From Burkholderiales bacterium PBB1 (lineage in GTDB: Bacteria; Pseudomonadota; Gammaproteobacteria; Burkholderiales; Burkholderiaceae_C): DNA of 64,000 bases. Position 1 is the first letter of the stretch, and each line of letters starts with the position of its first letter. The stretch covers positions 248,001-312,000 of the forward strand of contig NKIN01000001.1 in the NCBI GenBank assembly GCA_002255905.1, written 5' to 3'. Position numbers and translations under genes: made by a program. The notes below the pieces were generated by a model. That model ran no database searches, was not told where the DNA came from, and saw only the letters and a program-made list of their open reading frames with translations. Shown here in pieces: positions 1 through 33,705 of the stretch.

Positions 1-3000
1 AGCACCAGCTCGAACGCCTGCCCGGCGACGAGGCTGGCGGGTGCGCTCACGTTCAGCGAGGGCGCCACATTGCGCACCGGCACGACGAAGGACAGCGGCG
101 CAGAGCTGTTGCCCAGGGCATCGACGGCGCGCACGGTGAAGCTGGCGTTGGCCGGGCCGTCGGCGGCCGTCCAGGTGATCAGCCCGGTGGCGCTGACCTG
201 TGCGCCCGACGGGGCGGTGTCGAGCACATAGCTCACGGCCTCGCCCTGCGGATCGGTGGCGGCGAGCTGCAGGCTCCAGGCACTGCCTTCGTCGACCGGC
301 GCAGGCGCAGGCACCGGCGCGAACACCGGGGCAAGGTCGCCAGCGGGCGGCGTCGAAACGAACGACACGTCGTCGACCTGCACCACCGAGCCCGGTGGGC
401 CGAAGCTGAGCAGGTCGAGGAACAACACGGCGGTGCGGCCAGCAGCATCGGCCTTCAGCGGCACGACGTAGCGGACCGAGCCATCGGGCAGTACCGTGGC
501 CGTGGTGCCGGTGGCCAGGTTGGCGTTCGCGCCCAGCTGCAGGTTCACGGCCGCGTCCGACGCAGTGAGCGCAGCCAGCGGCAGCAGCGACTGGCCGGTC
601 GGGCCATTCAGCAGCGAGACCTCGAACGCATCGGGCGGCTGGTCCGTGGCCTGCGGGCCGGCGGTCACTTGCACCGTGAAGCTCAGGCCCGTGGCGCCCT
701 CGGGCACCACCGCCCACTGCATCAGGCGCGAGAGGTAGGCGTCGCCTTCGGCCAGCACACCCTTGCCACCGGTCACGCTGGCCTGGCCGTCGGCGGTCCA
801 GGCGCTGGTGGCATCGAAGCCGCTGTCGGTGATGCCGGTGGCCACGCCGGAGGTGGGCACGGTCCACACCGGCACCGCGGTGGGGGTCGTGGTGGTGAAC
901 GCGGTCGTGGTGGTGGATGGTTGCGACACGGGCGTGCCAGCGGCGTCGTACACGGCAGGCGCGTCGCCCCCTTCCTGGCGCGGCGTGTTGCCGGGGTAGT
1001 GGTACAGGTCCAGCAGCTGCAGGCCGCGCAGCCACGTGATCAGGTCGTCGGCCGACAGGCTGATGTGGCCTGCCGCGGCGCTGCCGTCGGCCACCGCCAG
1101 GCTGGGTTCGTCGAGCGCCATCGACAAGGCCACCAGTTGCTTCTGGGTCACCTGCAGGTTCAGCAGGTTGCCCATGAAGTTCAGGTTGGAGGCCTGGGCA
1201 CTGTCCTGGAAGAAGCCCGACTGGTAGAACGCGGGCAGGCTGGACGCCGGGCCGTACTCGTCGAACAGGCCGAGCTGGTGGCCGAATTCGTGCGCGATGG
1301 TCTTGCCGATGCGCGTGCCGAAACCGAACAGATCGACCACCGAGGTTTCGGTACCCGCCGAGCGCAGCAGGTTGTCGAGCAGGATGTTGATGCTGCTGGA
1401 CTGATCGGCGTTCAGTGCATTGACCAGTCGGTACTTCTTGCCAGCGGCCGTCTCGTCGACGCGCAGTTTCCATTCGGTGTCGATCTGCTCGGGCGCGGGC
1501 TGCGCGGCTCCGGGCTGGATCACACCGTTGGCACCGAGGAAGAACAGCGAGCGGAAGTCCTGCGACGATGATCCCAGCAGGCTGCTGCTGCCGCTGAAGT
1601 CACCGCTGCTGCGGGACTGGCTGTCACCGGTGGTGCGCACCGACACGTCACCGGTCAGGCCGCTGTCGATCAATTCGAGCGCCGGCACCAGGCTGCCTGG
1701 GACATCTTTCAGGAACGTGCGGTAGACCTGCTGGATCGCCTCCAGCATGCCCTCGATGATGGTGTCGATGCGCGAATTCAGCACATCGCGGTCGATGACC
1801 ACGTCGGGGAACGAGCTGCCCGTCATGAAGTCGAGGAACTTGGCGTACTCCGGAACCGTGTTGAACTGGGTGCTGGCGCCGGGCACGGCGGTGTAGTACT
1901 GGTCCAGCGGGTTCACGTCGACCGTGCCGGACTTGCGTGCCGACCACAGCTCGTCGTACAGGCGCAGCAGCGTGTCGCGGATCAGCTGCACCGGCACCTT
2001 CAGCTGCTGGATCGGGCGCACGTCGCTGCGCATCAGGGTCGTGGACCAGACATCGCTGCCCTTGCGGACCTCGAACGAGTCGAGCCACTTGGTGGCGATG
2101 TCCGATTCCTGCGCGGTGAAGGTCAATGTGCTGACGCCGCCCTTGGTCTTCCAGGGAATGCCATCGACGCCATAGATGGCCAGCGGGGTGTCGTTCTTGA
2201 TGTGCACCGTGCGCGTGCCGCCGACACGGGTGTCGGCCAGGTTCATCGTGCCGTCGTAGGCATTGAGATCGGACAGCTCGGCCAGGTGATAGGCCATCAG
2301 CGTGGTGCGCGTCAGCACATGGGTGCCCGACAGCGTGTCGATGGTCACAGGCGCCTGCATCAGCCAGGCCTCGTTGTTGTCGAACTTGGGCAAGGCCGCA
2401 TCGCTGACGCGGGCGCGCAGGTACAGCGTCTTCGATGCGCCGGCTGCCAGCGTGAACGCGGCGAGCGTGTGGTCTGCCCCGTCGTTGACGACCGTCGAAG
2501 CCAGGCCATCGTCCAGTTCGACGAAGTAGTTGGCGCCCACGGTGATGCGCATCACCCGGGCCACGCTGCTGGTGTTGCTGACGGTGAAGGCGATGCGGTT
2601 GGTGCCGTCGACCGATTCGAAGTTGCCTGCCACCTCCGGTCCCTGCGGACCCAGCGGGTGCAGCGCGTTGCTGAGGTAGATGGCCTGGTCGTTCTGGTCG
2701 CCGTAGTTGTCGGTGACCACGATGCCCGAATCCATGTGGATGTTGTCGAGCTGGATGACGTCGAGCGGGTTGGCGGCCACCCACTTGAACGACAGCGTGA
2801 CCTGATGACCACGGGCATCTGGCGGAATGTTCAGGCGCACCGTCTGCATCGCCGGCTTTTCCAGCGTCGTCAGGTCGGTGCCGGGCTGCCCCAGCATCGA
2901 CACGCTGCCGAACTGCCACACCTGCTGGCTGACGTCGTCGGTGGCGAAGATCTCGAGCTTCGAGTTCGCGTCGACGCCGGCGGCCACGGCGAAGTCCAGC

Positions 3001-27000: not shown

Positions 27001-30000
27001 TCGCCACCGGTGAGGGCTGTGTTGCGGGCCGCGGCGATGTCGGCGGTGCTGCGCGCGACGTTCCAGACCCGGACATCGTCGATGCGTCCGGCGAAAGGCT
27101 GTGCAAAGGTCTCGACCGATGCACCGATCAGCAGCGGGGAGGCTGCGGCGCTGGCGTTGGTGTTGCGCACCGTCGCCGTGCCTTGCGCCAGCGGCACGGC
27201 CACGCCGTCGATCACGATGCGCATCGTGCCGGCGTCGCGGTCGATCACACCGGCGACATGCTGCCAGGTGCCCGGTGTGATCAGGCCCGGCGCTGTCAGG
27301 AAATACTGCTCGGAGCCGTCGCCAGTGGACAGCAGCACCGACCCGTTGGCATTGAGCCAGAGCGAGTAGCTGCGCTGCTGGGCGTTGCCGTCGCCCTTGT
27401 AGAACACCGGTGTCCAGGTCTGGCGGAAGGCGTCGGGGCGGATCCATGCCTCGAGCGTGACCTGCCGTGTCAGATCGAGTGCGGGCGTGCTCGGCGCCTG
27501 GATCCAGCGCGCGCCGTTCAATGCCAATGCGCCGCCGATCTGTCCACCTGCCGGCTGCCAGCCAGGGTCCACCGACTGCGGCTGGCCGATGACCAACGGG
27601 CGCTGCACGTCGGTCACTGGCTGCAGGTTCAGGCTGTAGGCGTTGGGAACATCGGTGTTGTAGCGGCGGCCTTCGACCAGCAGTGTGTAGGTACCGCTGT
27701 AGGGCAACGCGAAGGTGTCGATGTCGCTGCCAAGCGCGGTGTTCCAGACCTCGTCGCCAAAAGGCGAGATCAGCCGCACCCGGCCATCACTGTTGGAGGC
27801 GGCCTGCTGGTCGAGGTAATAGCGGGCCCCGGCGGTGCCGGTGAAGCGGTAGCCGTCGGTGCGGCTGCCCGGGTCGAGCACACCGCTCAAGGCCGTGCCC
27901 GGCGACAGCGAGGGCAGTGTCGACAGGTCGATCAGACGCAGGCCATAAGGCGCAGTGCTGTCGCCGTTGGCCGAGATGCTGATCGTGTAAGTGCCCGAAG
28001 CGAGATCGAGAACGGTCGACCCATCGGACGAATCGGTGCCGACGATCGATTTGTTGATGTCCAGACCGCCGGGGCCGGTCAGGCGCCAATTCACCGTCCC
28101 GTAGCTGTTGCTGAGGTTGTCGAAGGCCACCAGCCTGCGGTCGGTGAGGGTGAAGCGGTACCGGTCCACCTGGCCGGCACTGCCCAGGTTGCCCGCCAGC
28201 GTGCCCGAGACCTGCCCGAAGCTGTGAACCACCGTGCCGGCCGCACCACCGGAGATGCCGCTTGCGACCGATGTGCCCGCCACCGAATCGAGTGGCTGGT
28301 AGACGGCAAGGCCGGCCTGGGTGCCTGTGAGTGGCGCATCCTTTCCGGCAGCGATCTGCCCGGCGCTGCGCGCGACGGACCAGATGCGCACGTCGTCGAT
28401 CGCGCCATCGAAAGGCGAATACGCCGAGCTGGGGTCGCCCGTCCCGCCGATGCGCAGTGGCCCGCCCGTGCCCACCGCACCGGCAGGATTGGGCGGCCCT
28501 CCGTTGTTCGACGCGGTGGCATCCACCCCGTTGATCAGGATCCGCACCTGTGGCGTGCCGCTGCTGCGGTCGATCACCAGCGCGACGTGCGTCCAGGCCC
28601 CGGTGGCGACCACGCCTGCGGCCGTGCTGGCGCCGTGCAGGCCTGACGCATCGCCTGAATCGCCGTAGAGCGATCCGTTCGAGTTCAGCCACAGCGAGTA
28701 GGTGCGCTGCGCACCCGATGCGTCCTTGGTGACGATCGGCATCCAGGTGTTGGAAAAGCGGGCCGGGTTGATCCACGCTTCCACCGTCACGCTGCCACGC
28801 AGGTCGGTGGCGGCGCTGTCCGCGACCTCGATGCGTCTGATCGCGTCGAGCGAGATGGCGTTGCCGATCTTCCCGGCCACGACGCGCGGCGCCAGACCGA
28901 CCGACTGGCCGAGGCTGAAGTCGGTGGTGGTGTCGACCACCGGGCGCAGGTTGAAGCGGTAGGCGTTGGGGGTCAGCTGGCTGTAGCGCCGACCCTCGAC
29001 AAGCAGCGTGTACACGCCGCTCAAGGGCACGGCAAAGGTGCCCACATCGCTGGTGAGGCCGGTCGACCAGACTTCGGTGCCCAGCGGCGAGATCAGGCGG
29101 AATCGTCCGTCGCCGTTGTTCGCTGTCAGCAGATCGAAGAAGAACTGTTGCCCGGCCGTCGCGGTGAACTGGTAGGCGTCGGTTTCGCTGCCGGGGGCCA
29201 GCGTGCCGGAGACGTCGGTGCCGGGTGTGAGTGGCGTGGCCGTCGACAGGTCGAGCAGCCGCAGCGCGTAGTTGCCGGTTTGATCGCCCTGCGCATCGAT
29301 GGTCAGCGTGTAGGTGCCAGCCTTCAGGTCGTAGACAGGAAAGCCGTCTGACGAGTCGGTGCTGGCGAGGTTGCGGACCGCCACCACACCCTGCGGGCCG
29401 GACAGTGTCCAGTTGAAGGTGCCTGAGGGGTTGAGCAGCGAATCAAACGCGATGCGGCGATCGCTGGCCAGCGTGAAGCGGTAGGTGTCTGTCTGCCCGG
29501 GCAAGGTCAGCACGCCGGCGATCGCGCCGGCTGTGCTGTTGTACAGGTGGCCGATGCTGCCGTTGGCGCCGTTGCCACTGCTGTCGGCTGCGATGTTTCC
29601 GGTGCCTTCATCGAATCCCAGGCGCAACACCAAGCCAGCGGTTGGCGTCGTGATGGCGAGGTTGCGGTTGGCGGCAATCTGGGCGCCGCTGCGCGCCACG
29701 TTCCAGAGCCGAACTTCGTCGATGACGCCGTCGAAGCGGTCATAGCTGCCGTTACCCATGCCGACATAGCTGGAAGAGCCGATGCGCAAAGGGTCAGGCA
29801 CATCCACGGCAGGGGTCGAACGGATGCTGCGCGAGGCGGCCAGCACGCCGTCGAGATAGATCAGCATCTGGGGCGTACCGCTGCTGCGGTCGATGACACC
29901 CGCCACATGGGTCCAGCGGCCCAGTTGGATCGAGCCCGCAGCTGTGGGCACACTCTGGCTGCCGCCGGCATCGGCCGTGTAGAACTGGATGTAGCCTGAA

Positions 30001-33000
30001 CTGTTGAGCCACATCGCGTAGGTGCCGCTACCCTGCGGGCCCTCCTTGTAGGCGATCGGTGTCCAGGTGGCAGGGTAGCGATCGGGCCGTATCCAGGCCT
30101 CGAATGTCATGTTGGTGAGCGGATTCACGGCCGCGCTGCCGGGCACGCTGACTTCGCGCATCGCATCGAACGCGATGGCGCTGCCGCTGCCGAGCGCCGG
30201 CGCACCCGCCACCCAGCGCGGTGTGACGCCGATCTGCTGGCCCAGCACGATGTCGGTGGTTGTCGCAACCACCGGTTGGACGTTGAAGCGGTAGGCATTG
30301 GTCGACGCCGCCTGGTAACGGCGGCCTTCGATCACCAGCACCCAGCGGCCCGTTTGATCGAGCGTGCTGACATCGACGTCGGAGCCCAGGCCGTTGATCC
30401 AGCGCTGGTCACCGCTCGGGCTGATCAGCCGCCACGACGAATCGCCGTTCGCCACGGACTGGATGTCGAAGTAGACCTTGTCGCCCGCTGTGGCGTCGAA
30501 GGCGTACAGCGCGGTGGCGTTGCCGGGCACCAGCGAACCCGACTGCGACGTGCCGGGCGTGAACACGGTGGCGCTGGCCAGATCGAGCAGCCGGAAACCG
30601 TAGGCGCCCGTGGTGTTGCCATCGATGCGCAGCGTGTAGGTGCCCGCCTTCAACGCGACCACCGGGTTGCTGCCCCAATCCCAGCTGCGCTGCTGGAAAT
30701 TGAGCGAGCCGATGACGCCGCGGTCGTCGGTGATCGTCCAGCGCAAGGCGCCGTTGTCGTTGCGCGGGTCCATCACCACTTGCGTGTCCTGCGCCACGGT
30801 GAAGGTGTACACGTCGCGCTGGGTGGGCACGGCGCGGTTGCCATTGGTCAGCTGGCCCAGCACCAGCGGCTGGGGTGCCGCCGGCGTTGTCGTCAGTCGG
30901 GCCCAGTCGATGGCGACATCGCGCGGGGTGGTGCCACCCATCGTGTTGTTCTGGAATATTCCGAAGCGCGCTCCCCTCGCGAACGCATCGGTGGTGAACC
31001 CCAGATCGCGGCTGAAGAGCTCGACGCCGCCGTCGCTCAGCAGCACCGCGCGCAGATTCCCGTCCGCGGCCGCTTCGAGCTTGAGCCGATACCAGGTGTT
31101 GTCGGTGAAGGCGAATCCCTGTTGTGTAGCGAAAGCGCCGCCGCCGATGCCACCGGTCCCGGTCCGGACGACTCGCCCCCCACCGTTGCTGTCGCTGAAC
31201 AGGTCGATGTACGCGTAGCGGCCCGGATCATCGACATCAACGATGTTCAGTCCGATCAGTTCATCGACACCCGTTGCCGCCGACTGCACCAGGGTGTTGA
31301 AGCGGACTTCGTAACTCAAGCCCTGCGCGACGACGTTGGTGGCCTGTGTGAACCCCGCTGCGCGACCGGAGTTGTAGGGCATGCTGCCCTGAAGACGAAG
31401 CACCGAGGCGCCATCGAGCGTTTCGAAACGGTACGGGACGGGGTTGTCCAGACCCGGATTGCCGTTAGGCCCGACGAGCCACATCGGATCCAACGCCGGG
31501 CCGTTGAATTCCTGATTGAACGAGGTGGTTCGCGCGGCCAGCGTGTTGCCGCGGGGCAGCACGTTGAAGCTGAACGCATTCGCCGCGGTGTTGTAGCGGC
31601 GCCCTTCGATCAGCAGCGTGTAGATGCCGGCTTGCAGATAGGTCGCTTCGGCCACGTCCGAGCCGAAACCGCTGCTCCACAACTGCTCGCCGGTCGGCGA
31701 AATCAGCCGCCAGAGAGCGTCGGTGTTGGCCGCGCTCAGCCGATCGAAGAAGAACCGATCGCCGGCATTGACGTTGAAGCGATAGGCCTGCGTCGAATTG
31801 CCTGGCACCAAGACGCCGTTCACCGCTGTTCCCGGTGTGATGGCGGTGGCTGTCGCCAGATCGATCAGGCGGAAGGCGAAATCGCCGACGGTATCGCCAG
31901 GCGCATCGACGCTGAGCGTGTAGCGCCCGGGGGCCAGCGTGTAGACCGCGCGATCGCCACGCGCGATGTCGCCGCTGTAGCCATTGAAGCCGCCGAAGTC
32001 CTGCGAGTCGCTGCCCTGAAAGCTGCGGTTCGCGACCAGGTCGCCGCGCGGGCCCGTGAGGCTCCAAGCGAAGTTGGTATCGGCGAGCGAGTCGAAGACC
32101 ACCGTGCGCGTCTGGGCGACATCAAGCGTGTAGAGCACCCGCTGACCTGGCGTGGCAATGCGCCCTTCGATCGCATCGGGCAGGTTGTCGTTGCGGCCGA
32201 CCACCCGACCGGTGTTGCCGTTCGCACTGCTGTCGATCGCCGAGGTGCCGGCGCCGTCGTCGAGCTTGTAGTAAAGCGCCAGACCCGCTTCGCTGCCGTT
32301 CAAGACCGATGACCGTGCGGCCGCGATTTCTGCCGCGCTGCGCACCAGATTCCAGATTCGGACTTCATCGACCGTGCCCACCAAGGGGCCGAAGCCGCCG
32401 TAAGGCTCGTTGGTGTGACCGATGAACAGCGGCTTGGCGCTCGAGGTGGCACTCAGGTTGGTGCGTACCGAACCGCTGGAAACGAGCACGCCGTCGACAA
32501 AGAGGCTCATCACGCCGGCATTGCGGTCGATGGTCGCGGCAACGTGGGTGGGCGTGCCCAGCTTGATCGGGCCGCCACTGGTGAACAGCGCTTGCTCGCC
32601 ATTGGCGTCGCCGGTGCTCAGCAGCAGGTCGCCGCCGCTGGTCACGAACAGGCCGTAGGTGCGCCCGGCGCCCAGAGACGCGTCGTCGGCGCCCTTGTAG
32701 ATCACCGGCATGTAGCTGTTGGTGAACCGGGACACATTGATCCACGCCTCGATGGTCACGGTGCGGGTGGCATCGAGGGCCGGGGTGCTGGTCGCTTCGA
32801 TCCAGCGCGACGCCTCGATGCTCAGGCCGCCTGCGGTCCAGTCAGGCGCCAGCCGCTGAGGCTGGCCGATCGTCAGCGTGCGCTGGGTGTCGACGACCGG
32901 TTGCAGATTGAACGAATAGTTGGCTGTCGCGACAGCGGACGTGACCCGCCCCTCAAGCAGCAGCGTGTAAGTGCCTGACTGCGTCGTGGTGAAGTTCTCT

Positions 33001-33695
33001 ACGTCGGTATTGGCCGGGCTCGGGCCCCAGGCGGTCTTGCCGTCGGGTGCGATCAGGCGCCACCAGGTGTCGCCCTGGGACAGCTTGCTGTCGAGGAAGT
33101 AGCGATCACCCGCGTTCGCGGTGAAGCTGTAGGCGTCGGTCTCGTTGGCCGGGCTGAGCTGGCCGGTGACCGTGGTGCCCGGCGTCAGGCTTTGCGCCTT
33201 GCTGAGGTCGACCAGGCGGAAGCTGTAGTCGCCCGTCTTGTCGGCAACGCCGTCGACCGACAAGGTGTAGTCGCCGGCCTTCAAGTCAAGCGCCGTGTTG
33301 CCGCCCAGATCGGCGCCGTCGGCCGAGCGCAGCGAGGTGGGCGGTACCACCGTGCCGTTGGGGCCGTTGAGCGACCACTGCAGCTGGCTGTCTGGCGTCA
33401 GGGAGTCGAAGACGATGCGGACATCGTTCTTCAGCGAGAAACTGTACTTGTCGACTTCGCCAGGGACGTCGATGCGGCCATCCACCCGTGGCACCACGGT
33501 GTCGCCCGACAGCAGCACCCGGGGTTCCAGCGCTTCGACCAGCGGTGCGGTGCGCACGGTGGGCGCGGCCGGCACGATGGCTTCCAGCGCACGCCGCACC
33601 AGACGGCCGAGCAGGGTGCGTTCCACCGGAGCCAGCACCGGGCCGTTCTTCTTCCGCTTGCGGCGAGAACTGGAACTTCTGACTTCGGTATCCAA
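1..33695 (-). CDS. Giant multidomain extracellular protein, LEPR-XLL family (3' end outside window)
   Basis: One uninterrupted minus-strand frame of at least 11,231 codons. I checked the codon phase at the start, near 5.1 kb and at the left edge, and it is the same throughout; the encoded text reads as continuous secreted-protein sequence. Approximate order by residue: basic N-terminus; LEPRVLLS near 56-63; PPC/LamG/beta-sandwich array 60-3145; about 17 CARDB-like repeats 3145-5347; PPC- and TIG-like domains to 5550; helical and DUF11/Ig-like parts to 6200; propeller-like 6250-6510; Big5-like 6520-6650; nine He_PIG/cadherin-like 6750-7610; RHS-like 7820-8060; dockerin-like 8180-8235; Big2 and ZU5-like to 8650; YVTN-like propeller 8890-9320; hydrolase-like 9550-9750; metallopeptidase-like 10,700-10,900. 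Probably a secreted or cell-surface adhesin; the export route (perhaps type I) and the C-terminal signal are outside the window. There is no in-frame ATG before about 32.7 kb, so the start is non-ATG. I chose TTG 33,695 because of a GGAG 6 nt upstream; GTG 33,818 is the alternative. Confidence 0.93.
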   Translation of the reverse strand, partial: MDTEVRSSSSRRKRKKNGPVLAPVERTLLGRLVRRALEAIVPAAPTVRTAPLVEALEPRVLLSGDTVVPRVDGRIDVPGEVDKYSFSLKNDVRIVFDSLTPDSQLQWSLNGPNGTVVPPTSLRSADGADLGGNTALDLKAGDYTLSVDGVADKTGDYSFRLVDLSKAQSLTPGTTVTGQLSPANETDAYSFTANAGDRYFLDSKLSQGDTWWRLIAPDGKTAWGPSPANTDVENFTTTQSGTYTLLLEGRVTSAVATANYSFNLQPVVDTQRTLTIGQPQRLAPDWTAGGLSIEASRWIEATSTPALDATRTVTIEAWINVSRFTNSYMPVIYKGADDASLGAGRTYGLFVTSGGDLLLSTGDANGEQALFTSGGPIKLGTPTHVAATIDRNAGVMSLFVDGVLVSSGSVRTNLSATSSAKPLFIGHTNEPYGGFGPLVGTVDEVRIWNLVRSAAEIAAARSSVLNGSEAGLALYYKLDDGAGTSAIDSSANGNTGRVVGRNDNLPDAIEGRIATPGQRVLYTLDVAQTRTVVFDSLADTNFAWSLTGPRGDLVANRSFQGSDSQDFGGFNGYSGDIARGDRAVYTLAPGRYTLSVDAPGDTVGDFAFRLIDLATATAITPGTAVNGVLVPGNSTQAYRFNVNAGDRFFFDRLSAANTDALWRLISPTGEQLWSSGFGSDVAEATYLQAGIYTLLIEGRRYNTAANAFSFNVLPRGNTLAARTTSFNQEFNGPALDPMWLVGPNGNPGLDNPVPYRFETLDGASVLRLQGSMPYNSGRAAGFTQATNVVAQGLSYEVRFNTLVQSAATGVDELIGLNIVDVDDPGRYAYIDLFSDSNGGGRVVRTGTGGIGGGAFATQQGFAFTDNTWYRLKLEAAADGNLRAVLLSDGGVELFSRDLGFTTDAFARGARFGIFQNNTMGGTTPRDVAIDWARLTTTPAAPQPLVLGQLTNGNRAVPTQRDVYTFTVAQDTQVVMDPRNDNGALRWTITDDRGVIGSLNFQQRSWDWGSNPVVALKAGTYTLRIDGNTTGAYGFRLLDLASATVFTPGTSQSGSLVPGNATALYAFDATAGDKVYFDIQSVANGDSSWRLISPSGDQRWINGLGSDVDVSTLDQTGRWVLVIEGRRYQAASTNAYRFNVQPVVATTTDIVLGQQIGVTPRWVAGAPALGSGSAIAFDAMREVSVPGSAAVNPLTNMTFEAWIRPDRYPATWTPIAYKEGPQGSGTYAMWLNSSGYIQFYTADAGGSQSVPTAAGSIQLGRWTHVAGVIDRSSGTPQMLIYLDGVLAASRSIRSTPAVDVPDPLRIGSSSYVGMGNGSYDRFDGVIDEVRLWNVARSGAQIAANRNLAITTPTAGLVLRLGFDEGTGNIAADSSGNGANGSIGHLYNSTAGAIAGVLTLPGQTDTYRFTLASDRRIAFDSLLNPSGTFNWTLSGPQGVVAVRNLASTDSSDGFPVYDLKAGTYTLTIDAQGDQTGNYALRLLDLSTATPLTPGTDVSGTLAPGSETDAYQFTATAGQQFFFDLLTANNGDGRFRLISPLGTEVWSTGLTSDVGTFAVPLSGVYTLLVEGRRYSQLTPNAYRFNLRPVVDTTTDFSLGQSVGLAPRVVAGKIGNAISLDAIRRIEVADSAATDLRGSVTVEAWINPARFSNTWMPIVTKDASGAQRTYSLWLNSNGSLYGDSGDASGLHGASTAAGVVATGAWTHVALVIDRSSGTPQVRILINGVDATASNNGGPPNPAGAVGTGGPLRIGGTGDPSSAYSPFDGAIDDVRIWSVARSAGQIAAGKDAPLTGTQAGLAVYQPLDSVAGTSVASGISGGAAGTVVHSFGQVSGTLAGNLGSAGQVDRYRFTLTDRRLVAFDNLSNSYGTVNWRLTGPGGLDINKSIVGTDSSDGSTVLDLASGTYTISISANGDSTAPYGLRLIDLSTLPSLSPGTALSGVLDPGSRTDGYRFTGTAGARYYLDQQAASNSDGRVRLISPFGDEVWNTALGSDIDTFALPYSGTYTLLVEGRRYNTDVPNAYSLNLQPVTDVQRPLVIGQPQSVDPGWQPAGGQIGGALALNGARWIQAPSTPALDLTRQVTLEAWIRPDAFRQTWTPVFYKGDGNAQQRSYSLWLNANGSVLLSTGDGSEQYFLTAPGLITPGTWQHVAGVIDRDAGTMRIVIDGVAVPLAQGTATVRNTNASAAASPLLIGASVETFAQPFAGRIDDVRVWNVARSTADIAAARNTALTGGEAGLVLNYRLDGSGDTIAVADAGLAGRTGVVAGYGGGLPDTVQGRIALPGQQVVYTLDVTQQRTVVFDALSDVNFTWSLAAATGKLVNNRSFQSSDSRDFSGFNGYSPDLTRSDRAVYTLAPGRYTLSVDAPGDAVGDFAFRLIDLASAIAITPGTVVNGTLVPGNATQAYRINVAAGDRYYFDQLSAANADVQWRLVSPTGEQLWSSYFGADVAERTYLQAGVYTLLVEGRRYNTVANAYSFNVIPRGNSLTERVPGFNQEFDGPTLDALWTSGGVPPTLVDRGGLNTRFETLDGASVLRVQNTFTSGNAGYGLLSSGNVAGAGIRYEVRFNTLTQAAGGANNELLGLMLRDAADPNVWIATALGSDTAGASRQLRVDARGVGGNSYFQSTSFAFADNTWYRLRLEATPNGGFFAVLASDAGVDLATLSFGTATADAFASGARAALYQSNAISGGAATQTDVAIDWARLSSTPAAAAPLALGTLVNGNRATNNQRDLYTFTLAQDTQVVMDTRVDNGALVWTLTGDRGVMGSLNFQQRSWDIGSNPVMALQAGTYTLRIDGNTTGAYGFRLLDLATATVFTPATPQSGSLAPGNSTALYAFDAAAGDKVYFDIQSVSNGDSTWRLISPSGDQRWLTGLGSDVDVTTLDQAGRWVLVLEGRRYQAATTNAFRFNVQPVTDKAGALTLGQRVDGTLDATGQQASYTFDLAQRSRLLFDALSDSPYTWSLSGPRGVVIGRDAAGRVGFLGDSRTIRYSDSIDIGGNPLLDLIAGRYTLTIDAPADATGSYAFRLLDLAAATPLSPGVATTGSLNPGNETDLYNFSAAAGDKFYFDAQLFSATTDGQWRLFGPNGNVLFANYGYGDQDVMALPEAGTYTLAIEGRRYQTASNDYRFMVQPLADTAPVRITALEVTPAPDVRPADLQVTAATAIEAGSTVTVSWNDRNDGVLPTAGNWRDRVVVTRVDTGEVLGSAVLAIDGATGALAAGAQVARSLQIQLPDGARGAGALRFTVTTDIDNALAEQNATGDAETNNAIATVVTSVLPTYADLQPSGLTVQPASGWQAGDTVTVSWRSSNTGTRDASGAWQETLLVRNLTTNQTVQAITVTHDGSTLAAGGAFVDRSVSFTWPGGTLGTGVYTYTVALDTSDAVFEANVGGTGESNNASSLTIASAPDLQVSGLALDPAPLLAGSTQTLRWNDINTGNAAVRSGYADRIVVVNTTTQQTLLNATLLYDAAVLGPIAAGGVRAREFSFQLPDGAAGVGALSITVVTDSDSAGNTSIAEANASGTAEGNNSTTITATSSAAAYADLVVSNVTVPATARGGSTVTVTWTVTNQGAAPALGNWIDRVVLSADTLFGNADDRAAVDVGHAGPLAAGASYTAQAELTLPLNFDGSLNVIVRSDATSAVLEPDTRANNTSPPQPITVAAPYADFTVEAVSAPATALSGTAIELAWRVRNVGDSTAAGSWQDRVVLSQDGVFGNADDVVLGTVNRSGPVAAGDAYTVRQTFTLPFELTGSWQVLVKSDVNALVFEGGRVGNNLGTAATPLQINPAPAANLVASSVVGTASGVALAGAAVTVGWNVANTGEAAAPGPWIDYVYISPDGQLTGATLLGSRTRTDALAAGESYSASLLVNLPAWADTDTARLLVVTDAGNQVYESQREADNLASTPLALRHVDLRADRLVAVSNATSGDTIQVAFDVTQAGSAALTGNWTDRLYLSRDTVLDANDRLLGIRDVTATLNPGDTYRSSFTVTLPIDADGPWYLIGQADAGNRVNEVGAETNNTTSAPITVALAPYADLQTSAVTAPAQTIGDPARLTVSWTVSNAGTGTGASTNWVDSVIASRDGVLGNGDDIVLGTYSRSGALAVGDSYTRSETVLAPPSLSGRFTLFVQADSAGQVFENGLESNNAASTAPVDIMPIAYADLQVVSAGTAASAQSGGTVTVTWRVENRGIGRTDLSSWSDRITLATNADGSGVVASGSFDHLGTLSAGTGYDRTGTLTLPQGLSGTYYVFVDTGTPYEFIYGDNNRRLAGQVTVTVAPSADLVVQSITAPAAANEGSAIQISWTVLNQGAAAATGNISDLVQLIKPGDATVLPLTLGSFTYAAGLEAGKFYTRTERFVLPAHIEGGWVVRVTTNVGSQVFELGTRADNNTTLDDQLLLLSANPRPDLQVSTIDAPAAVTAGSGFAVTYQVVNRGTVGTAGRWNDKVYLSLDNKFSGDDLLLDSVPNPQALDALVGAYSATTKTVSVPTRYQGQAYILVVADGDNTLDEHPNDANNVTARAITINPYPPADLVASNVSAPAQAVYGSEIEVRFKVTNNGVNLTDKTSWVDSVWLARDKTRPTPGLTDENGNVIGNGGIFLGSAVHTGVLAVGESYEAVIKVRIPSVIASGSYYITPWTDAYDAVLEDTFVPNADDPNEFDSNNYKARSIDIIGNPTPPLPDLQVTSVVADATGSTDAPFTVSWTVQNRDDGNANDWVDSVFVSDLPYGSPGAKTWFLGSFSRVKSLARLESYTNTQSFMLSPAVKASYVTVITDTNPVMPFVVESREDNNSASTVTQIVPRPADLVPLSLTAQAQNYSGEKTTVSWTVQNQGQAVWSGTKRWIDEVWISPDPVFGSRAIKLGSVLHDNGSGLAAGQSYTETADFTLPAGIDGPYYLHLIVDAAGGQPVPEDVSNRNDYSLGKYSASAYEPVNLDNNRLSTTLPVTYREPDLVIATQGFTVPPTASSGDLINVGYTVTNQGNRATRQDRWLDRIYLSRDPSLDSSDLQVGSFMRYGALAAGASYTQNFQLQLPEGTDGRWYLIAYTDSDLVGLNIGDPSPTETGRIGYTGDAVPEFRGEGNNVTVKPIDITLRASADLRVQAGSVTIPERVLTGQVLDLSYTVVNAGAGSTPPAQSSWTDRIYLSADSSLDLNADRQIGEVTHTGGLAAGASYSVNKSIRLGNDLVGPYYVFVVTDPADRNPRGRVYEGNNEGNNATASVLPLLIEQPPPADLVVTSFNLPQSGAVNQDITLSWTVKNQGQYAAQGSWSDAVYLSADGEWSLDDIRLGQIDHAGTIEPGASYTTPAKAFTLPPMKAGQYRVIVRPDIYNQVYEGSDEGNNITPSSNTVSVTVPELQLGVAQGTMLKVGVGQLYKVHVDAGQTLRFSLDTAQPDAADEIYVRWNDVPTAAKFDASFNTPLQPDQTAVVPTSQAGDYYVMVRSLSAGTPSFAATLKVEALPFQITDVTPDQGGDGRWVSVTISGAQFKAGAVAKLVRPGLSEIEPSQVQVVDATTIVAIFDLRNQPHGLYDVQVTNPNGAVAVLPYRYLIERAMPIDVTLGLGGPRALSPSSSGLYHVTLENGTNVDTPYVYFQIGVPEMGDNAKVLGLPYVSFASNVRGGPAAADDPNAAWASLDSEVNTTGYNLAPGYVLDLQAGGSAGLNFTAQTYPGFQAIVAKDPVALRAILADARPEWIADGSFETRLTALNAFIQALIDNPVAGQKALDKVRRYMPFRFNVFASATAMTRDEFVQRQSADAEALRLKVLADRSASVALIGLASDAEGWKQSYLAALEQAGLLRPVDEAPPIRQQPRVAGVLAVLTSGVTLGTAGRSVQSDGDLVAFFGQIATWYGDQPGTLAPIASYDTLIVGTDDGPELIQVPVPSLPQLSDYNLGLAQATYLNAFNVFAKGSSNPASATASSDLSQLGLQTLFDLLASSTAQASLTGPAGYGDQQFLPADQSLPYTVNFQNASTASSTVKEVRIVQKLDPAFSVYSFRLGDLQLGDVTVHIPAGRATYQGDIDLRNSRGYILRVSAGIDPNTATASWVLQAIDPATGEVLTDATKGLLPPDDANGSGQGYVSYTIDPRFGVTTGQQVHATARVTFDGRVAFDTTDLVQTFDGAAPVTTVTTRALAGNAYDVRWSAVDDAGGSGVLHTSVYVSVDGGGWEIWLRQTTDTSAVYQGEAGHRHEFAALSTDNAGNREQPPASLSLPDDGTRSNLGTTPSVDRTTVDTGTPPVPSNATSTNALFRQAEAGVPASTSTTRPSLYTTVLAPFVAQSFVTGIATSGADIGALALLRQADGGFVVSGGANRGALYRVAPDGGSVLNPDADSGVPVYDMTLDSQGRLWATSGGGQLLELDPQSLAVLDRYGDSLTQSLAFDATAQVLYVSSGNGIEKFDLLSRTFSHYSDFRVDDLALAPNGQLWGTSWPRRGEVVSFDANGRPSAQLRLDAALDSIAFGVQGSSLEGLLFLSARRPSGSTAPVSLTMVDLSTMRSLQVATGLQSAEQLLATADGRLLIANGSHVDVLAPVIAPTVTRVNPPNGTLVALPTSQIEVQFDQDMLADGSANSVTLVSQYALVKTDSALLTTVRPLTARYDAATRTVTLTFEPLVAGDFELVVSKNVAAQSGLRLAADYTSRFLAVDNFSTKVSLTLTGTRSSRLDGSVSWDVTVTNLDTEPLLAPLLLAIDPGRYFAGTVNGGTDFGGGIWLLDVGAALQGARLRPGESTTARTVTLQTLESVTGQRIDLGQGIYAIPYPNSRPELSSTPLTQAIVGQSYAYQAQAADPDGGTVRYVLLQAPEGMQVDAGTGLVTWTPTAQQPALSQVILRAYDNRGAYVTQAYTVTLRGGNAAPQLSVLPAEITLTEGAPWRLALAPFDADGQAVSVMVDGLPGGAVFDPMTGNLDWTPGYASAGRYEGVRITASDGVNVVTATTTLVVLPANGLPTLTVLGPTQVREGDPLRLRLIGSDPDNNTLVYTSPSLPGGALLDPNTGVLTWTPGYAQAGRHELVLRASDGQGYAERRVVIDVLNVNAAPDFGNLSGLTVSEGQPISLRIWPADPDNPSFQVPDRLPDGSLTGDTVAPASVTVSALQLPDGASYDTDTGMLTWTPSFDQAGTRTLRFRAVDDGNGTGVAQSTEVTVQVQVRNVNRPPVVSAINDVTVAKGETGATLFSVSDPDGDPLEVGVSGLPGFGQLTALGGGQYRLDWAPGDQDRGNHVVTVTVRDNGDGGDAHAVLSTSRTFVVGVTSASEPPVLRPIGDQVAVIGSPWTLLVRASDLDQDALTFSATGLPAGVSPTPGVVYGTALLSWTPTAIDAGVYDVSLTVRDDGNGGAGTVGSATRQFRLTARASNAAPVLQPIGDQVVQEGQSYTLALSATDADGDRLSYEVLNAPPGATLDPLTGIFRWTPTLVQAGDYPGVVFRVSDGAASSSETVRITVLQTNQSPVFSVLPPVGGREGAPLSFTPVATDPDGDALLYSVVGALPAGARLDPTTGRFDWTPDYGQAGVYTVQLRTVDRSGAADVLAIEIDVADTNRAPALTVSDHRATVGSRLQFQLVATDADTDQTLRYSASGLPEGATVNAQTGLFDWTPSAGQVGDFLIALHVSDGVATVSRGVLVRVGVVAQGPSVSVVTTPSFPAVPGQLVNATVLADSLAPIVARTLTVNGQAVVLDARGRASIAAGAPGLMRLVATATDADGYTSQTDTVIRVRDPLDLQAPTLTLSLSGNPSVVSAPVAVVGSVQDSALESWTLSIARQGSSTFRTLGQGSQALATPATLAALDPATLVDGYYVLRLQAVDTAGRQSEISVKVEVHSASKVPAVVRTETDASITLAGHPISIVRTYNDLQPDVPGAFGDGWRWALRDLDVSTASDGTANTSGLRAGDRLYLTAPDGSRIGFTFTPVSIAAAGQTFEQARWTADAGSTWSLSSAGGLLQKGLGTYYDLLTGAAYTPQASTARAAFVLQGADGTRYEFSARDGVSRIVYADGVELLVGDAGIATPSGEGLRLERNARGQVSTLVRPDGGQVLYSYNADGRLIGVRQLESATSMRYAYADGHLLIATDGTSGVTVTPAGAGSTSAPLAADLGVAGQYLDQPVAGSLSAGGAALYALTVRASEISASAGGAALIGIVVEADAGSTLAPAIPELAGLTALSSGATAGRAYALFRVTDAGLLALRLAAASGNGGFHLRVFAVGDVNLDGQVDGSDASLLSAARAAGSVNPQMDVNLDGAVDATDTQLLYANFGYTPNRAPVLKDTSLLTHVDLQLTASMAAAADDIEGDPVTLRVVGASHGSARMSGDGRSIIFRPEAGYSGVAQVSLVADDGYLSSAVHTYTVNVSNAALIAIDILTRRPVIQTGSAVQMGFVGDFEDQTGVELAPDYLQLRTVGGDAATINGNGVLRGMHNGYGALVASRGDLSAATAYVVGAPTTLDDAAIQLGGIDTYPGSVTLAAQGGQRQIKVTSLDEEVASAASGAMYFAGDGRVVQISADGLISGLQSGESVVTVIYRSAESRIAVRVQTPSVGPTVVGADGGLVSDASGMRVAVAPGALAADTTVSIQSADPATFGPPMLPADQGYTLGAAFTLDVGPNGMQVPAQLAIPVTGLAEGTEVRFYRAIDLPDPSGAIRHLWLEVESGVVGADGIARTQSPPYPGVLSGGNYIVTGISLKKLQTVRVAEATTGVLSALAGSTAGAAAGGIAFAAATAMVINPLLGIAVTAMGALAGLMTLPFGRSPLVVWGISPVGGFVQSQGNVEVLPGGVGKFSAQVIDSAAVAVTDPRIMSASVELKPGTGGVLAPVLSLDLAQTFWSQAGAPDTGSGVVGQRLEDLTVAFIANGVVVATAPLTADPVLYGRYNVAVPTNVAIGGVKIEVRRTSSVLVSTAGGVPTWAKNVFFSNQVGIEAPGRYAFVALGGQDAVGVITTSNDGTTPANTVVGRISVGDTTKPNQPDAPRDVAITADNARAYVTLRSSHSVAVVDTLMLRQLDAVADLPLDPNNPNDPARAATLGVQPINLPDDARPFWIVLDDAQGLAFVGDEATSTGGGGRIYVLDIDPSSDTYNQLIATLTAQDANGPVAPFGFRGLVMDSAAGQLLALAPGGKKLFGDDRDNDTTRPLPGRIIVFDVRSLRGNLAIGLPLTKIEQVIDVGPEPYGISGTSEAGRVIFTNRAFDGDTDATDSNSQNRPGGVGFMQREAGGRIWSTPRYLNLTLGSATDKFDVNNAQAVVVTQDLRWAFVTGYNQYIQGVASHDPDISLAQPAGGNVGIIRDPFHLYTEEGDPKQGLIAATRMTPYSFPDNLALSPNGEYLYVAYSGSNQVQVFGVSAMIAEVERILALPANQGGGLDALARTPINEFLRPYSETGALLGPDDDPFLVKIPNPLIDLRADYRLRGTGSLQEFGNFINQDRAPLAPGASPRGIAVQDDFLKLLTPASTTDVTDTTPTFTWTTSGRAGSARLFVSAFQPGQGLFPSDKPVASTYPNPDHLATAYGQYILTGSSYSLDANANRIYTSERFDLETGAGVQSTTLPDLSMLTKGQSYWWGVEVTTPDGRVYRDSQQFKVAAAGATPASNALPTTYAAVTLITHGFQVPYLSDGRATTDISNLIELGQAIARQGDGALFIYHPEDGSWTSPDGVSMASVLGKSLVLVSDWTREAAISDSGFAEAAADALFASIMGMISTGDAVGTALKTSAWHMIGFGRGASVTSEIVQRFGAYLPTGAAGGIPDLQVTTLDPHDFTQDSLAFPLKDALSIVSAASNLVPYVGKYLSKFIDALAKAVHLLALDTLAYNDFKDPTVENWSNISFLDNYYQDVGGDTPPNSSFTSFLIDDVFKRISFSSLLQGFTSNGRAITGADVNLNLNGRPGFQYDDPYVGLGSPDARTVAWYAGTADLQIQLFPGNADLATTPNDRIWRQVADRLYVPSATNERILRTGFLGNGFPWYRAQEVQNGAYLVPKTESFARTDTRSWEGIGAGAFYSVLGGGVALRPQSAATPTDLTTNNTQFGVTDAPIPSVFNGDFQASIRPFFGRFPLIAGSNTWLEIPGWSLQGGSGGKLQGLALAPHLQAGWFETVQNDIIAAATDLVNSSLHKSEEVQSLVTKLVGAAGQQVQGQGYPLYDFFGALLGKQISKQVETVKSSIWNDPVAAFTEVRNTINAAWLAVKGDVLAEVSGELIGDFFATLKKKASVKGLASAAGGAIKGAIGDAIPALESYLQEKLLDYSFQLSVVNDTLTHNRMYIGPDASRLALDFAVAAGVDANSKLEIFATDDVSQQVWQFGSVSMLGQPGTDLTTLEKPAMQTVRLNIPPDARGHQVTLSFKWVAANPLDVIQLDNIHMDSGIVVTDNYGDQNDQAIYLSNALHPLGPQGPEVAGNFESVDGTNRIAFTVSNTSSVARVMRITVGANYFVELDDGLASTVVNDGADHTLAAFTLAAGASKTLYLRARVSDAALPKFDNNEAWLMQAPVTIDTLSGTHVLTRTTLMAYHLAELSDLNAYDGTMNLADTRVGGTRTVHIKNDTPLAIYGVDGIPWKTKGGVSTLTFTAQESDIATKWLDSFEVRKGSDVWSTTLMRSDVRPIQQLKVPVQLIRDTLLRLYDELWSARKSGTVDVNPLDQYYTAVPGASTQFNTVPEYAKFLDFMTGSSFPDVVIDRDVLNSRIDTIIEGMLEAIQQVYRTFLKDVPGSLVPALELIDSGLTGDVSVRTTGDSQSRSSGDFSGSSSLLGSSSQDFRSLFFLGANGVIQPGAAQPAPEQIDTEWKLRVDETAAGKKYRLVNALNADQSSSINILLDNLLRSAGTETSVVDLFGFGTRIGKTIAHEFGHQLGLFDEYGPASSLPAFYQSGFFQDSAQASNLNFMGNLLNLQVTQKQLVALSMALDEPSLAVADGSAAAGHISLSADDLITWLRGLQLLDLYHYPGNTPRQEGGDAPAVYDAAGTPVSQPSTTTTAFTTTTPTAVPVWTVPTSGVATGITDSGFDATSAWTADGQASVTGGKGVLAEGDAYLSRLMQWAVVPEGATGLSFTVQVTAGPQATDQPPDAFEVSLLNGPTGQSLLPLAALTASDAAVNLQLGANANLATGTTATVLPDGSVRYVVPLKADAAGRTAVLFLDLLSFGPPGSVVQVDDVSFVSTPPAGDLAPVFAPVPAPAPVDEGSAWSLQLAATDPQGEAVSYVLDTAPSGAQVSATGLITWTAADGPANASFTVRAVDALGNSSAPLSFVVPVRNVAPSLNVSAPASLVAGQAFELV
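1050..1560 (-). other. Metzincin-like metallopeptidase domain in the giant protein
   Basis: HEFGHQLGLFDE (1,257-1,292) fits HExxHxxGxxD/H, with two His and a third ligand Asp plus the catalytic Glu. A candidate Met-turn, NFMGN (Met codon 1,173-1,175), follows about 30-40 residues later, as in metzincins. It is preceded by TRIGKTIA, the usual helix lead-in. All visible zinc-binding and catalytic residues are present, so it may be active, for example in self-processing or substrate degradation. A lectin-like beta domain (0.4-0.85 kb) follows. Confidence 0.75.
4440..5040 (-). other. Alpha/beta-hydrolase-like domain with replaced nucleophile
   Basis: The segment begins with hydrophobic strand VTLITHGF, which resembles the oxyanion-hole HG motif of lipases. 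It continues with a helix and the strand-turn-helix WHMIGFGRGASV at about 4,630-4,655, where a lipase would have G-x-S-x-G. Here it is G-F-G-R-G (4,632-4,646), so the usual Ser nucleophile is Gly. The fold call is by pattern only; if right, the domain is likely a non-catalytic relic or binding module. Confidence 0.5.
5740..7030 (-). other. YVTN-like beta-propeller of the giant protein
   Basis: Blades carry the YVTN-type pattern: AFVALGGQDAVGVI, PRDVAITADNARAYVTLRSS, AVVDT, AFVGDEA, GRIYVLDID, GEYLYVAYSGSNQVQVF. Several are preceded by P-x-x-[VI]-A-[IL]-[TS]-x-[DN]. This is a common surface-layer propeller in bacteria and archaea. A Fn3-like domain (DTTPTFTW) follows at about 5.45-5.06 kb. Confidence 0.7.
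7500..8660 (-). other. Big2-like and ZU5-like domains with a hydrophobic Ala/Gly stretch
   Basis: Two Big2-like halves (8.66-8.17 kb; a GLISGLQSGESVVTV-type strand) are followed by a ZU5-like domain beginning GADGGLVSD, with VAPGALAADT at about 8.15-7.75 kb. After that comes a roughly 45-residue hydrophobic Ala/Gly/Leu-rich stretch at about 7.70-7.53 kb. This could be buried, membrane-inserting, or a glycine-zipper-like helix. It is unusual in an otherwise beta-rich, polar protein. Confidence 0.5.
8996..9150 (-). other. Dockerin-type-I-like duplicated calcium loop
   Basis: Two F-hand-like calcium loops, DVNLDGQVDGSD and DVNLDGAVDATD, are separated by about 20 residues, each followed by a short helix with LL. 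This is the duplicated dockerin type I pattern. Dockerins bind cohesins in cellulosomes, but in non-cellulosomal giant proteins the pair often sits alone. No cohesin domain was recognised in the window. A cadherin-like domain (PVLKD onward) follows directly. Confidence 0.75.
9530..10270 (-). other. RHS/YD-like region of the giant protein
   Basis: The segment starts with GHPISIVRTYNDL and GAFGDGWRW, which resembles the opening of RHS shells, and ends with the YD-like strand YSYNADGRLIGVRQL. Only a few YD-type strands are present, so a complete RHS cage is unlikely; it reads as a short RHS-derived domain inside the larger protein. Confidence 0.55.
10850..13450 (-). repeat. Nine He_PIG / cadherin-like Ig repeats
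   Basis: Nine tandem repeats of about 90-110 residues. Each starts with N-x-x-P-x-[LFV], then a [VE]-x-G or EGxP turn, a DPDGD/DADGD calcium-type loop, LPxGAxxDPxTGxxxWTP and an R-x-x-D-x-x-G strand. That is the usual pattern of He_PIG (putative Ig) and cadherin-like domains in bacterial surface proteins. Minus-strand starts lie near 13.44, 13.17, 12.90, 12.63, 12.28, 11.97, 11.67, 11.39 and 11.12 kb. The acidic DxDGD loops suggest calcium-stiffened rods. One more He_PIG-like unit lies far downstream at about 0.1-0.35 kb, followed by the start of another module at the window edge. Confidence 0.82.
14150..14960 (-). other. NHL/SMP-30-like beta-propeller region of the giant protein
   Basis: About 270 residues with repeated blade-like strands, such as GALYRVAPDGG, GRLWATSGG, QLLELDP, LYVSSGNGIEKFD and GQLWGTSW. 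They alternate between a 'reports on an object' strand and a G-x-L-W strand. Such patterns are typical of six- or seven-bladed propellers. A Big5-like Ig domain (PPNGTLV followed by QFDQDM) follows at about 14.14-13.85 kb. Blade count and ligand are not determinable by eye. Confidence 0.55.
17655..24262 (-). repeat. Array of about 17 CARDB-like repeats
   Basis: About 17 head-to-tail repeats, mean near 388 bp (about 129 residues). Each opens with [AP]DL-[VQ]-x-x, followed by a G-x-x-V-x-V-x-W-x-V-x-N-x-G strand pair, W-x-D-x-[VI]-[YV]-[LV]-S, Y-x-x-[TR] and a closing E-x-x-x-x-N-N. This is the pattern of CARDB (cell-adhesion-related, bacterial) Ig-like domains. Starts on the minus strand lie near 24.24, 23.86, 23.49, 23.09, 22.71, 22.35, 21.98, 21.62, 21.24, 20.88, 20.50, 20.13, 19.68, 19.31, 18.87, 18.43 and 18.03 kb. 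They probably form an extended stalk. The repeats differ enough from each other that slippage is unlikely to be recent. Confidence 0.85.
24960..27570 (-). repeat. Internal duplication in the giant gene, copy 2
   Basis: Second copy of the LamG / PPC pair / FNQEF / PPC pair block also found at 30,250-32,860. Its LamG domain (RWIQAPSTPALD) is closer to the LamG of copy 1 (RWIEATSTPALD) than to the two LamG domains lying between the copies. This points to segmental duplication of a whole multi-domain block rather than of single domains. Confidence 0.8.
30250..32860 (-). repeat. Internal duplication in the giant gene, copy 1
   Basis: A block of LamG, paired PPC-like module, FNQEF beta-sandwich and paired PPC-like module. 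It matches the block at 24,960-27,570 domain for domain with an offset of about 5.29 kb. Shared landmarks include VVFD[SA]L, NGYS, YTLAPGRYTLSVDAPGD, GDFAFRLIDLA, NFQQRSWD and GSDVDVSTLDQ/TTLDQ. Protein identity is high but clearly not complete, so the copies have diverged. Confidence 0.8.
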
Positions 33696-33701
33696 GCGTG
33701 G

Positions 33702-33705
33702 CTCC
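33702..33705 (-). promoter_or_regulatory. Putative ribosome binding site (GGAG) deciding a TTG start
   Basis: GGAG lies 6 nt before TTG 33,695 in the frame of the giant protein. The other in-frame candidates, GTG 33,818 and GTG 33,776, have no visible Shine-Dalgarno sequence. An ATG at 33,715 exists but is in another frame and only opens a 94-codon shadow. Confidence 0.45.

Follow-up and report, generated by a model that had tools for sequence, protein, structure and literature searches.

Giant gene and adjoining operon

The window, i.e., the whole 64-kb stretch of DNA that was analysed, corresponds to C16:248001-312000 of a 3.25-Mb host genome that is 99.6% complete and consists of 19 contigs. 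A minus-strand frame was found at positions 3 to 33962, with no stop up to the window edge and with 11,320 codons in the window when counted from the first possible TTG. When the contig was joined on the left, the frame stopped at a TGA at window -2589, i.e., 2,589 bases past the left edge. The first-pass annotation had described one frame of more than 11,200 codons, open at the edge, and had proposed leftward extension and translation to the stop as the check; the extension ran uninterrupted to the TGA and bore the frame out. From the possible TTG at 33962, the frame has 12,183 codons, free of stops and of N. The start was assigned to TTG 33695, the codon chosen in the first-pass annotation, because a GGAG is placed 6 nt before it and because the GGAG..TTGGATACCGAAGTC stretch is conserved in all four motif-bearing genomes of the genus, i.e., the host and three congeners. 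Therefore, the protein has 12,094 aa, with a computed mass of 1.26 MDa and pI of 4.5.

The giant protein contains no cysteine, against approximately 95 predicted from the neighbouring proteins (10,466 aa). Its GC3 is 0.83-0.92 in each block of 1,000 codons, tandem repeat arrays within it are short, and the chance of an open frame of this length is approximately 10^-115 if 68% GC is assumed. The giant was confirmed as a single intact gene. A plus-strand frame of 2,311 aa (12024-18959) within it was read as a codon-bias shadow and was rejected as a gene.

Five genes follow the giant on the same strand, in the order TolC-type channel, GAF-HlyD adaptor, RRE-M50-adaptor fusion (hereafter the M50 protein), SecA-like ATPase, and second HlyD adaptor; a pirin gene on the opposite strand comes next (Table 1). 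The giant stop and the TolC start overlap as TGATG, and the GAF-HlyD and M50 genes as ATGA. This export operon, located outside the window and hence beyond the view of the first-pass annotation, is more informative than the size of the giant. Upstream of the giant, a dense sensory cluster was seen at window 33886-54105, with MASE3 and 4HB/GAF hybrid kinases, GGDEF-EAL, CheW, two MCPs, an Hpt kinase, and an HTH response regulator. It is possible that this cluster controls the giant operon.

Table 1. Features of the giant gene and of the operon behind it (window positions unless marked L004; window = L004 - 20000)
Feature	Position	Strand	Basis or remark
Giant gene, LEPR-XLL protein	1..33695, continuing past left edge to window -2589 (L004:17411)	minus	12,094 codons in all
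GGAG, likely ribosome-binding site	33702..33705	minus	6 nt upstream of TTG 33695
LEPR-XLL motif LEPRVLLSGD, starting at residue 56	33501..33530	minus	NF012209, 24.3 bits, cut-off 17
PPC-like, Laminin_G_3, SO2946-like_C modules	25562..33500	minus	Pfam
CARDB repeats, 10 stretches over threshold in the scanned piece	17162..24300, ends approximate	minus	Pfam
He_PIG / Big_9 / cadherin-like repeats and other segments	9150..13450, ends approximate	minus	Pfam
Dockerin-like segment	9006..9143	minus	Pfam
Zincin-like motif HEFGHQLGLFDEYG	1251..1292	minus	by eye
TolC-type channel	L004 16005-17411	minus	TolC family model, 272.6 bits, cut-off 225.15
GAF-HlyD adaptor	L004 14100-15923	minus	
RRE (PqqD-like)-M50-MacA-like adaptor fusion	L004 11944-14103	minus	
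SecA-like ATPase, truncated	L004 9942-11933	minus	
HlyD, second adaptor	L004 9092-9919	minus	

Domains of the giant protein

The N-terminal motif, which exceeded the family cut-off, places the giant in the LEPR-XLL family (NF012209). Near the C end, Big_9 and PKD domains were recognized by Pfam. No propeller or enzyme family passed at E <= 0.001 in Pfam and NCBIfam, and the NCBIfam M36-metallopeptidase models matched over the repeat domains alone, far under their cut-offs. Of the mixture of adhesive, propeller and enzyme-like domains described in the first-pass annotation, the adhesive type was therefore recovered, whereas the propeller and enzyme-like parts were text read by eye. The annotation is thus partly supported, being right on the extracellular-type giant frame and on the start codon. 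A PDB sequence search with the part of the giant at window 1-7661 gave no match at E <= 0.01. Judged from its domain types, the most likely role of the giant is adhesion or matrix contact.

By eye, RHS-like text was seen at approximately codons 7900-8170 and a propeller-like stretch at approximately codons 9000-9400. The pattern of a nucleophile elbow is GxSxG. In a hydrolase-like stretch (window 4632-4646), GFGRG was read at the expected elbow site, which possibly marks a dead enzyme domain.

Predicted RRE, site-2 protease and adaptor domains in one protein

The M50 protein showed a PqqD match, and the daptide HExxH model matched over residues 18-403 (E 2.9e-44). The daptide peptidase equivalog NF041824 was not reached (151.7 bits, cut-off 300), and a RiPP cluster of daptide type was ruled out by this score. 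The AlphaFold model had a pLDDT of 84 and a pTM of 0.60; because of the latter, the domain arrangement is uncertain. In the model, residues 16-105 aligned with the TbiB1-leader peptide structure 5v1v_A (Z 10.0, 86/88 residues, rmsd 2.9), but GdmN entries (e.g., 7vzy, 8hkr) tied over the same residues (Z 10.2-10.3), so the fold alone is no proof of leader binding. The N-terminal domain is predicted to have the RRE winged-helix fold, and the RRE-M50 order and the daptide-protease match also point toward a leader-binding role.

Residues 195-326 of the model aligned with the RseP orthologue 7w6y (Z 10.2), and HExxH and the distal Asp were invariant in 40 sequences. The M50 part is accordingly a predicted site-2 protease with an RseP-like fold. 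Residues of approximately 450-703 aligned with MacA/MexA/AcrA, with 9qgy as the best match (Z 15.2).

SecA-like ATPase

The Walker A and DE.D residues of the SecA-like protein were invariant in 35 sequences. Its model (pLDDT 87.5, pTM 0.87) showed the SecA fold, with 33-40% identity to solved SecAs and 3jv2 (38%) as the first match. Against the SecA-SecY complex 5eul, TMq was 0.79, and the preprotein-binding domain was present. The housekeeping SecA is encoded on contig C13 and is 48% identical over query residues 65-551, whereas the SecA-like protein is without the C-terminal third of it. In SecA, the two-helix finger that is inserted into SecY belongs to this third. Canonical SecA was ruled out by this absence and by the score against TIGR00963 (553.5 bits, cut-off 800). 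Accessory SecA2 was also ruled out, as the scores of the NCBIfam SecA2 models all fell below their cut-offs, i.e., 512.6/1085, 446.8/930, 418.3/725, and 393.8/1100 bits.

The SecA-like protein could still be an accessory Sec motor that hands the giant over to the housekeeping SecYEG, in which case the M50 and HlyD proteins would act only at a later step in the periplasm. The fold, the preprotein-binding domain, and the strong match to SecA-SecY complexes favor this explanation, but the C-terminal third is absent, the SecA2 cut-offs were missed, and the scan of genes at the locus showed none for SecY. The leader also speaks against it, since no Sec-type hydrophobic core was found in the first 80 residues of the giant, where the best 15-residue hydrophobic mean was 1.16 versus 2.33 in the TolC protein. 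This explanation is considered rather unlikely.

Co-occurrence of LEPR-XLL proteins and the module

Among 80 relatives, LEPR-XLL was found in exactly the nine genomes having M50 at E < 1e-100; seven further genomes had a weaker M50 alone, with LEPR absent. Twenty M50 loci of the relatives were fetched. The 13 with strong M50 had GAF-HlyD in 13/13 and a SecA-like gene in 12/13, and no SecA-like match of >=45 bits was seen at the seven weak-M50 loci.

A phylum sample of 249 genomes was then compared, with up to four candidates per genome scored for alignments and with thresholds chosen after the scores were seen, i.e., >=500 bits for M50 and >=590 bits for SecA-like (next match 566). LEPR was found in 35 genomes, M50 in 31, and SecA-like in 30; LEPR and M50 were shared by 26, M50 and SecA-like by 27, and LEPR and SecA-like by 24. 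The overlap of LEPR and M50 gave a Fisher value of 8e-23, and by genus (n = 132; LEPR 20, M50 19, both 14) of 1e-10, relatedness being ignored in both. The LEPR search was positive in 0/14 control genomes.

The association has exceptions on both sides. LEPR was absent from 5/31 strong-M50 genomes, strong M50 was absent from 9/35 LEPR genomes, and 11/35 LEPR genomes were without a SecA-like match at threshold, so not every LEPR protein requires a SecA-like motor. In two of those 11 (G089 and G148), the SecA-like gene is divergent or cut. Sub-threshold SecA-like genes adjoin M50 in G081, G089, and G148 (192, 55, and 233 bits), and that of G148 is cut by the contig end. G262 is the only one of the 31 strong-M50 genomes without a SecA-like gene seen. 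Its locus L162 (G262:C1:398000-417900) has strong M50, GAF-HlyD, HlyD, and a 2,850-aa frame, with SecA-like and LEPR matches absent, and is perhaps a motor-less variant of the module.

Named loci were chosen by M50 similarity, as the best 80 of at least 541. Their sources include Alpha-, Beta-, Gamma-, and Deltaproteobacteria, Nitrospiraceae, Rokubacteria, and Omnitrophota. Of these best 80, 78 had GAF-HlyD beside M50 and 73 had a SecA-like match, which in some cases was cut or weak; 8 had a TolC close to that encoded behind the giant, and 9 had LEPR within the fetched flank. Forty-eight named module genomes, from 50 of the 80 loci (L108 and L114 outside the count), were searched whole, and LEPR was found in 42 and absent from 6. 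In 30/48, no more than 12 kb separated a LEPR frame from the M50 gene, where approximately 2% per genome is expected, and the best LEPR-M50 pair was on one strand in 27 of the 30. In the marine Neptuniibacter caesariensis MED92 (L105), for example, a LEPR frame of 7,974 codons lies approximately 1.8 kb away from the gene for M50. Of 70 LEPR frames, 32 had no M50 gene within 12 kb, many being on other contigs. Frames of >=1,200 aa were found in 38/42 module loci of >=20 kb versus 3/20 arbitrary stretches from four genomes, with shadow frames possible throughout. That the LEPR-XLL giant is cargo of the module is well supported.

At the weak-M50 loci L048-L053, large frames without LEPR were found in 5/6, shadow frames again being possible (L047, on a 6.7-kb contig, was left out). 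L048 and L050-L053 have a weak, YydH-like M50 with large frames and no SecA-like match. Large proteins of other kinds may be handled by related M50 exporters.

Two forms of the motif

If the leader is read by the M50 protein, pairing of motif and M50 subtypes is expected. Of the 47 LEPR places of the phylum search, 37 were read, i.e., 36 fetched and the window's own, and 10 were left out; nine of the 36 fetched motifs were missed by the strict LEPR pattern and were read at the given places. In the nine LEPR genomes without strong M50, the motif is LEPR(I/L/V)(L/M)(L/F)D(A/G) in 11/12, with Asp after the LL-type pair; G287 holds the exception. In strong-M50 genomes, the motif is mostly LExR(x)(L/M)(L/M)S(A/G)(D/E), and Asp occupied the tested place in 0/23 (21 Ser, 1 Asn, 1 Ala), these 23 coming from genomes with strong M50 in which the contig is not always shared with M50. 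The difference gave a Fisher value of 3e-8 with relatedness ignored. The strong-M50 count becomes 1/25 once the window's own motif and G085b are included. G085b, an Asp form, was kept out of the 23, as it belongs to a strong-M50 genome but has a weak M50 approximately 4 kb away. The genome G085 has both forms, with LSG on a giant beside the strong M50 and the Asp form beside the weak one.

A second M50 subtype (approximately 240-290 bits) was found in 8/9 LEPR genomes without strong M50. In G161, G143, and G116 (C68), it is accompanied by a pair of HlyD-like genes, and a SecA-like gene was not seen there. Relatedness is a rival reason that might account for part of the pairing; family f59 supplies 7/12 motifs of the weak/no-M50 set (G131, G143, G167, G252, G287). 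However, G127 and G222, which also belong to this family, combine a strong M50 with motifs that lack the Asp.

It could also be considered that the module handles something else, e.g., a small peptide, and that LEPR-XLL giants just travel along with it. The relation of the M50 protein to RiPP leader proteases and the module genomes without LEPR would fit. Against this stand the overlapping genes, the adjacency in 30/48 named genomes, and the motif subtypes, which track the M50 subtypes, and such a cargo seems improbable.

Type I secretion

Giant adhesins of type I systems, e.g., SiiE, are in the parts of the literature covered similar in having a giant Ig-like adhesin, an adaptor, and a TolC-type channel, but they differ from the locus here, which has a SecA-like gene, lacks an ABC transporter in the operon, and has a signal proposed to be N-terminal rather than C-terminal. 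Canonical T1SS (HlyB-HlyD-TolC) was ruled out since, with adaptor and TolC present, no ABC gene was found in the five that follow the giant. An ordinary type I route whose ABC transporter is encoded elsewhere would agree with the adaptor and TolC genes, and C-terminal RTX was described for a LEPR-XLL giant of Vibrio by its authors, in the part of that paper covered (PMC10868602). It is nevertheless given little credence here, as the ABC gene is missing from those five, the RTX nonapeptide pattern GGxGxDxx had no match in the giant, and the SecA-like gene recurs in place.

Congener orthologue and size range

The separate genome of congener G008 has an open giant orthologue of 14,768 codons, with identity to the giant of 81% at the N end, 59% in the middle (approximately 7,100 residues), and 75% at the C end. 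The giant is therefore neither an artefact nor the largest of its genus; the first-pass annotation had suggested that it may be one of the largest. Its size alone is not exceptional for the family, since >=10,000 codons were counted in 16/70 LEPR-XLL frames of the 42 named genomes. The longest frame encountered had 19,427 codons (G140:C115:112865, motif L223; motif alone read). Although repeats are prone to mis-assembly and the frame was read from the assembled contig alone, an assembly artefact, fused-gene chain, or pseudogene is hardly credible given the 12,183 codons without a stop, the even GC3, the absence of Cys, the conservation of the start, the short tandem arrays, and the intact longer orthologue.

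Codons of approximately 9470-11040 (numbered from 33962) had no G008 counterpart among the alignments listed, while the ends are conserved, and the interior of the giant is therefore swapped in blocks. The segment at residues of approximately 9000-10500, largely without counterpart in G008, is present at L111, a module locus of a Hyphomicrobiales MAG, and by sequence comparison this is read as an exchange of blocks among distant giants. For the stretch at window 963-5165, a relative was found in 1/119 other genomes searched (G014, 38%). A second, divergent module was seen elsewhere in the G008 genome (L046, G008:C1:195724), with M50 approximately 35-37% identical.

Proposed export mechanism

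The giant is probably a secreted, modular, cysteine-free adhesin-type cargo of the adjoining exporter, with LEPR-XLL as leader, guided by the RRE and powered by the SecA-like protein. The M50 protein would bind the LEPR-XLL N-terminal segment as a leader through its RRE (PqqD-like) domain, which would lie at its cytosolic end, and its site-2 protease part would cleave the giant near the motif, at the membrane. The truncated SecA-like ATPase would drive the unfolded giant over the inner membrane, partnered by the M50 protein and not by SecY. In the topology that we infer, the conduit to the outside may be formed by GAF-HlyD, HlyD, and TolC together with the MacA-like adaptor region of the M50 protein.

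Precedents were found in RiPP maturation, in the sections covered of the two reports. The daptide leader is removed by the RRE-dependent intramembrane peptidase MpaP, and the residues tested for this processing were E-L-D-P-M-E-x-P, of which L and M were essential (PMC10036551); the M50 protein EpeP is thought to cleave and export its peptide (PMC10885120). The resemblance of daptide LDPM to LEPR is suggestive only. Like the RRE-fused site-2 proteases, i.e., daptide MpaP and epipeptide EpeP, the protein here has RRE followed by M50, but it adds a MacA-like adaptor domain, and the proposed cargo has thousands of residues.

More tentatively, and with slightly less than even confidence, a distinct and widespread envelope-spanning secretion system for giant proteins is proposed. 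The LEPR-XLL leader would be read and cut by one RRE/site-2 protease/adaptor protein, as in RiPP maturation, and a truncated SecA motor would pass the chain through that protein to TolC without SecY or ABC transporter. The dialects LLSAD and LLDAA would match exporter subtypes with and without the SecA-like motor.

Relation to known loci and significance

The locus corresponds to the secondary SecA_DEAD locus, related to T1SS, of Kamneva, Poudel and Ward (2015), whose role was given as "completely unknown" (PMC4452313). As described in the parts of that paper covered, such loci have SecA_DEAD, GAF-HlyD, M50-HlyD, HlyD, and sometimes OEP, and here a second SecA_DEAD protein likewise lies beside GAF-HlyD, M50-HlyD, and HlyD. 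In the same parts, the authors already proposed secretion, with SecA as ATPase and M50 as pore, and no cargo is named; 'LEPR', 'cadherin', and 'large protein' have no occurrence in the main text. The cargo link, the leader motif, and the RRE domain are added here.

LEPR-XLL giants (NF012209) share with the giant here the N-terminal motif over cut-off and a long extracellular-type repeat protein, but the giant here is tied to a specific export operon. In the literature found by that name, including PMC10868602, the export route is not given in the parts covered. SecA, M50, and LEPR do not occur in the main text of PMC11573180, on huge proteins. A link between the SecA/M50/HlyD module and a giant cargo was absent from the titles and abstract starts among the matches listed, which leave preprints and most subscription papers outside, so that an unseen report is possible.

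The module has been known since 2015 without cargo, and the LEPR-XLL giants without an export route in the literature found; once they are joined, each has a function that can be tested. The link also names a leader and its likely reader, and the giants would leave the cell by a SecA-driven route that dispenses with the type I ABC transporter.
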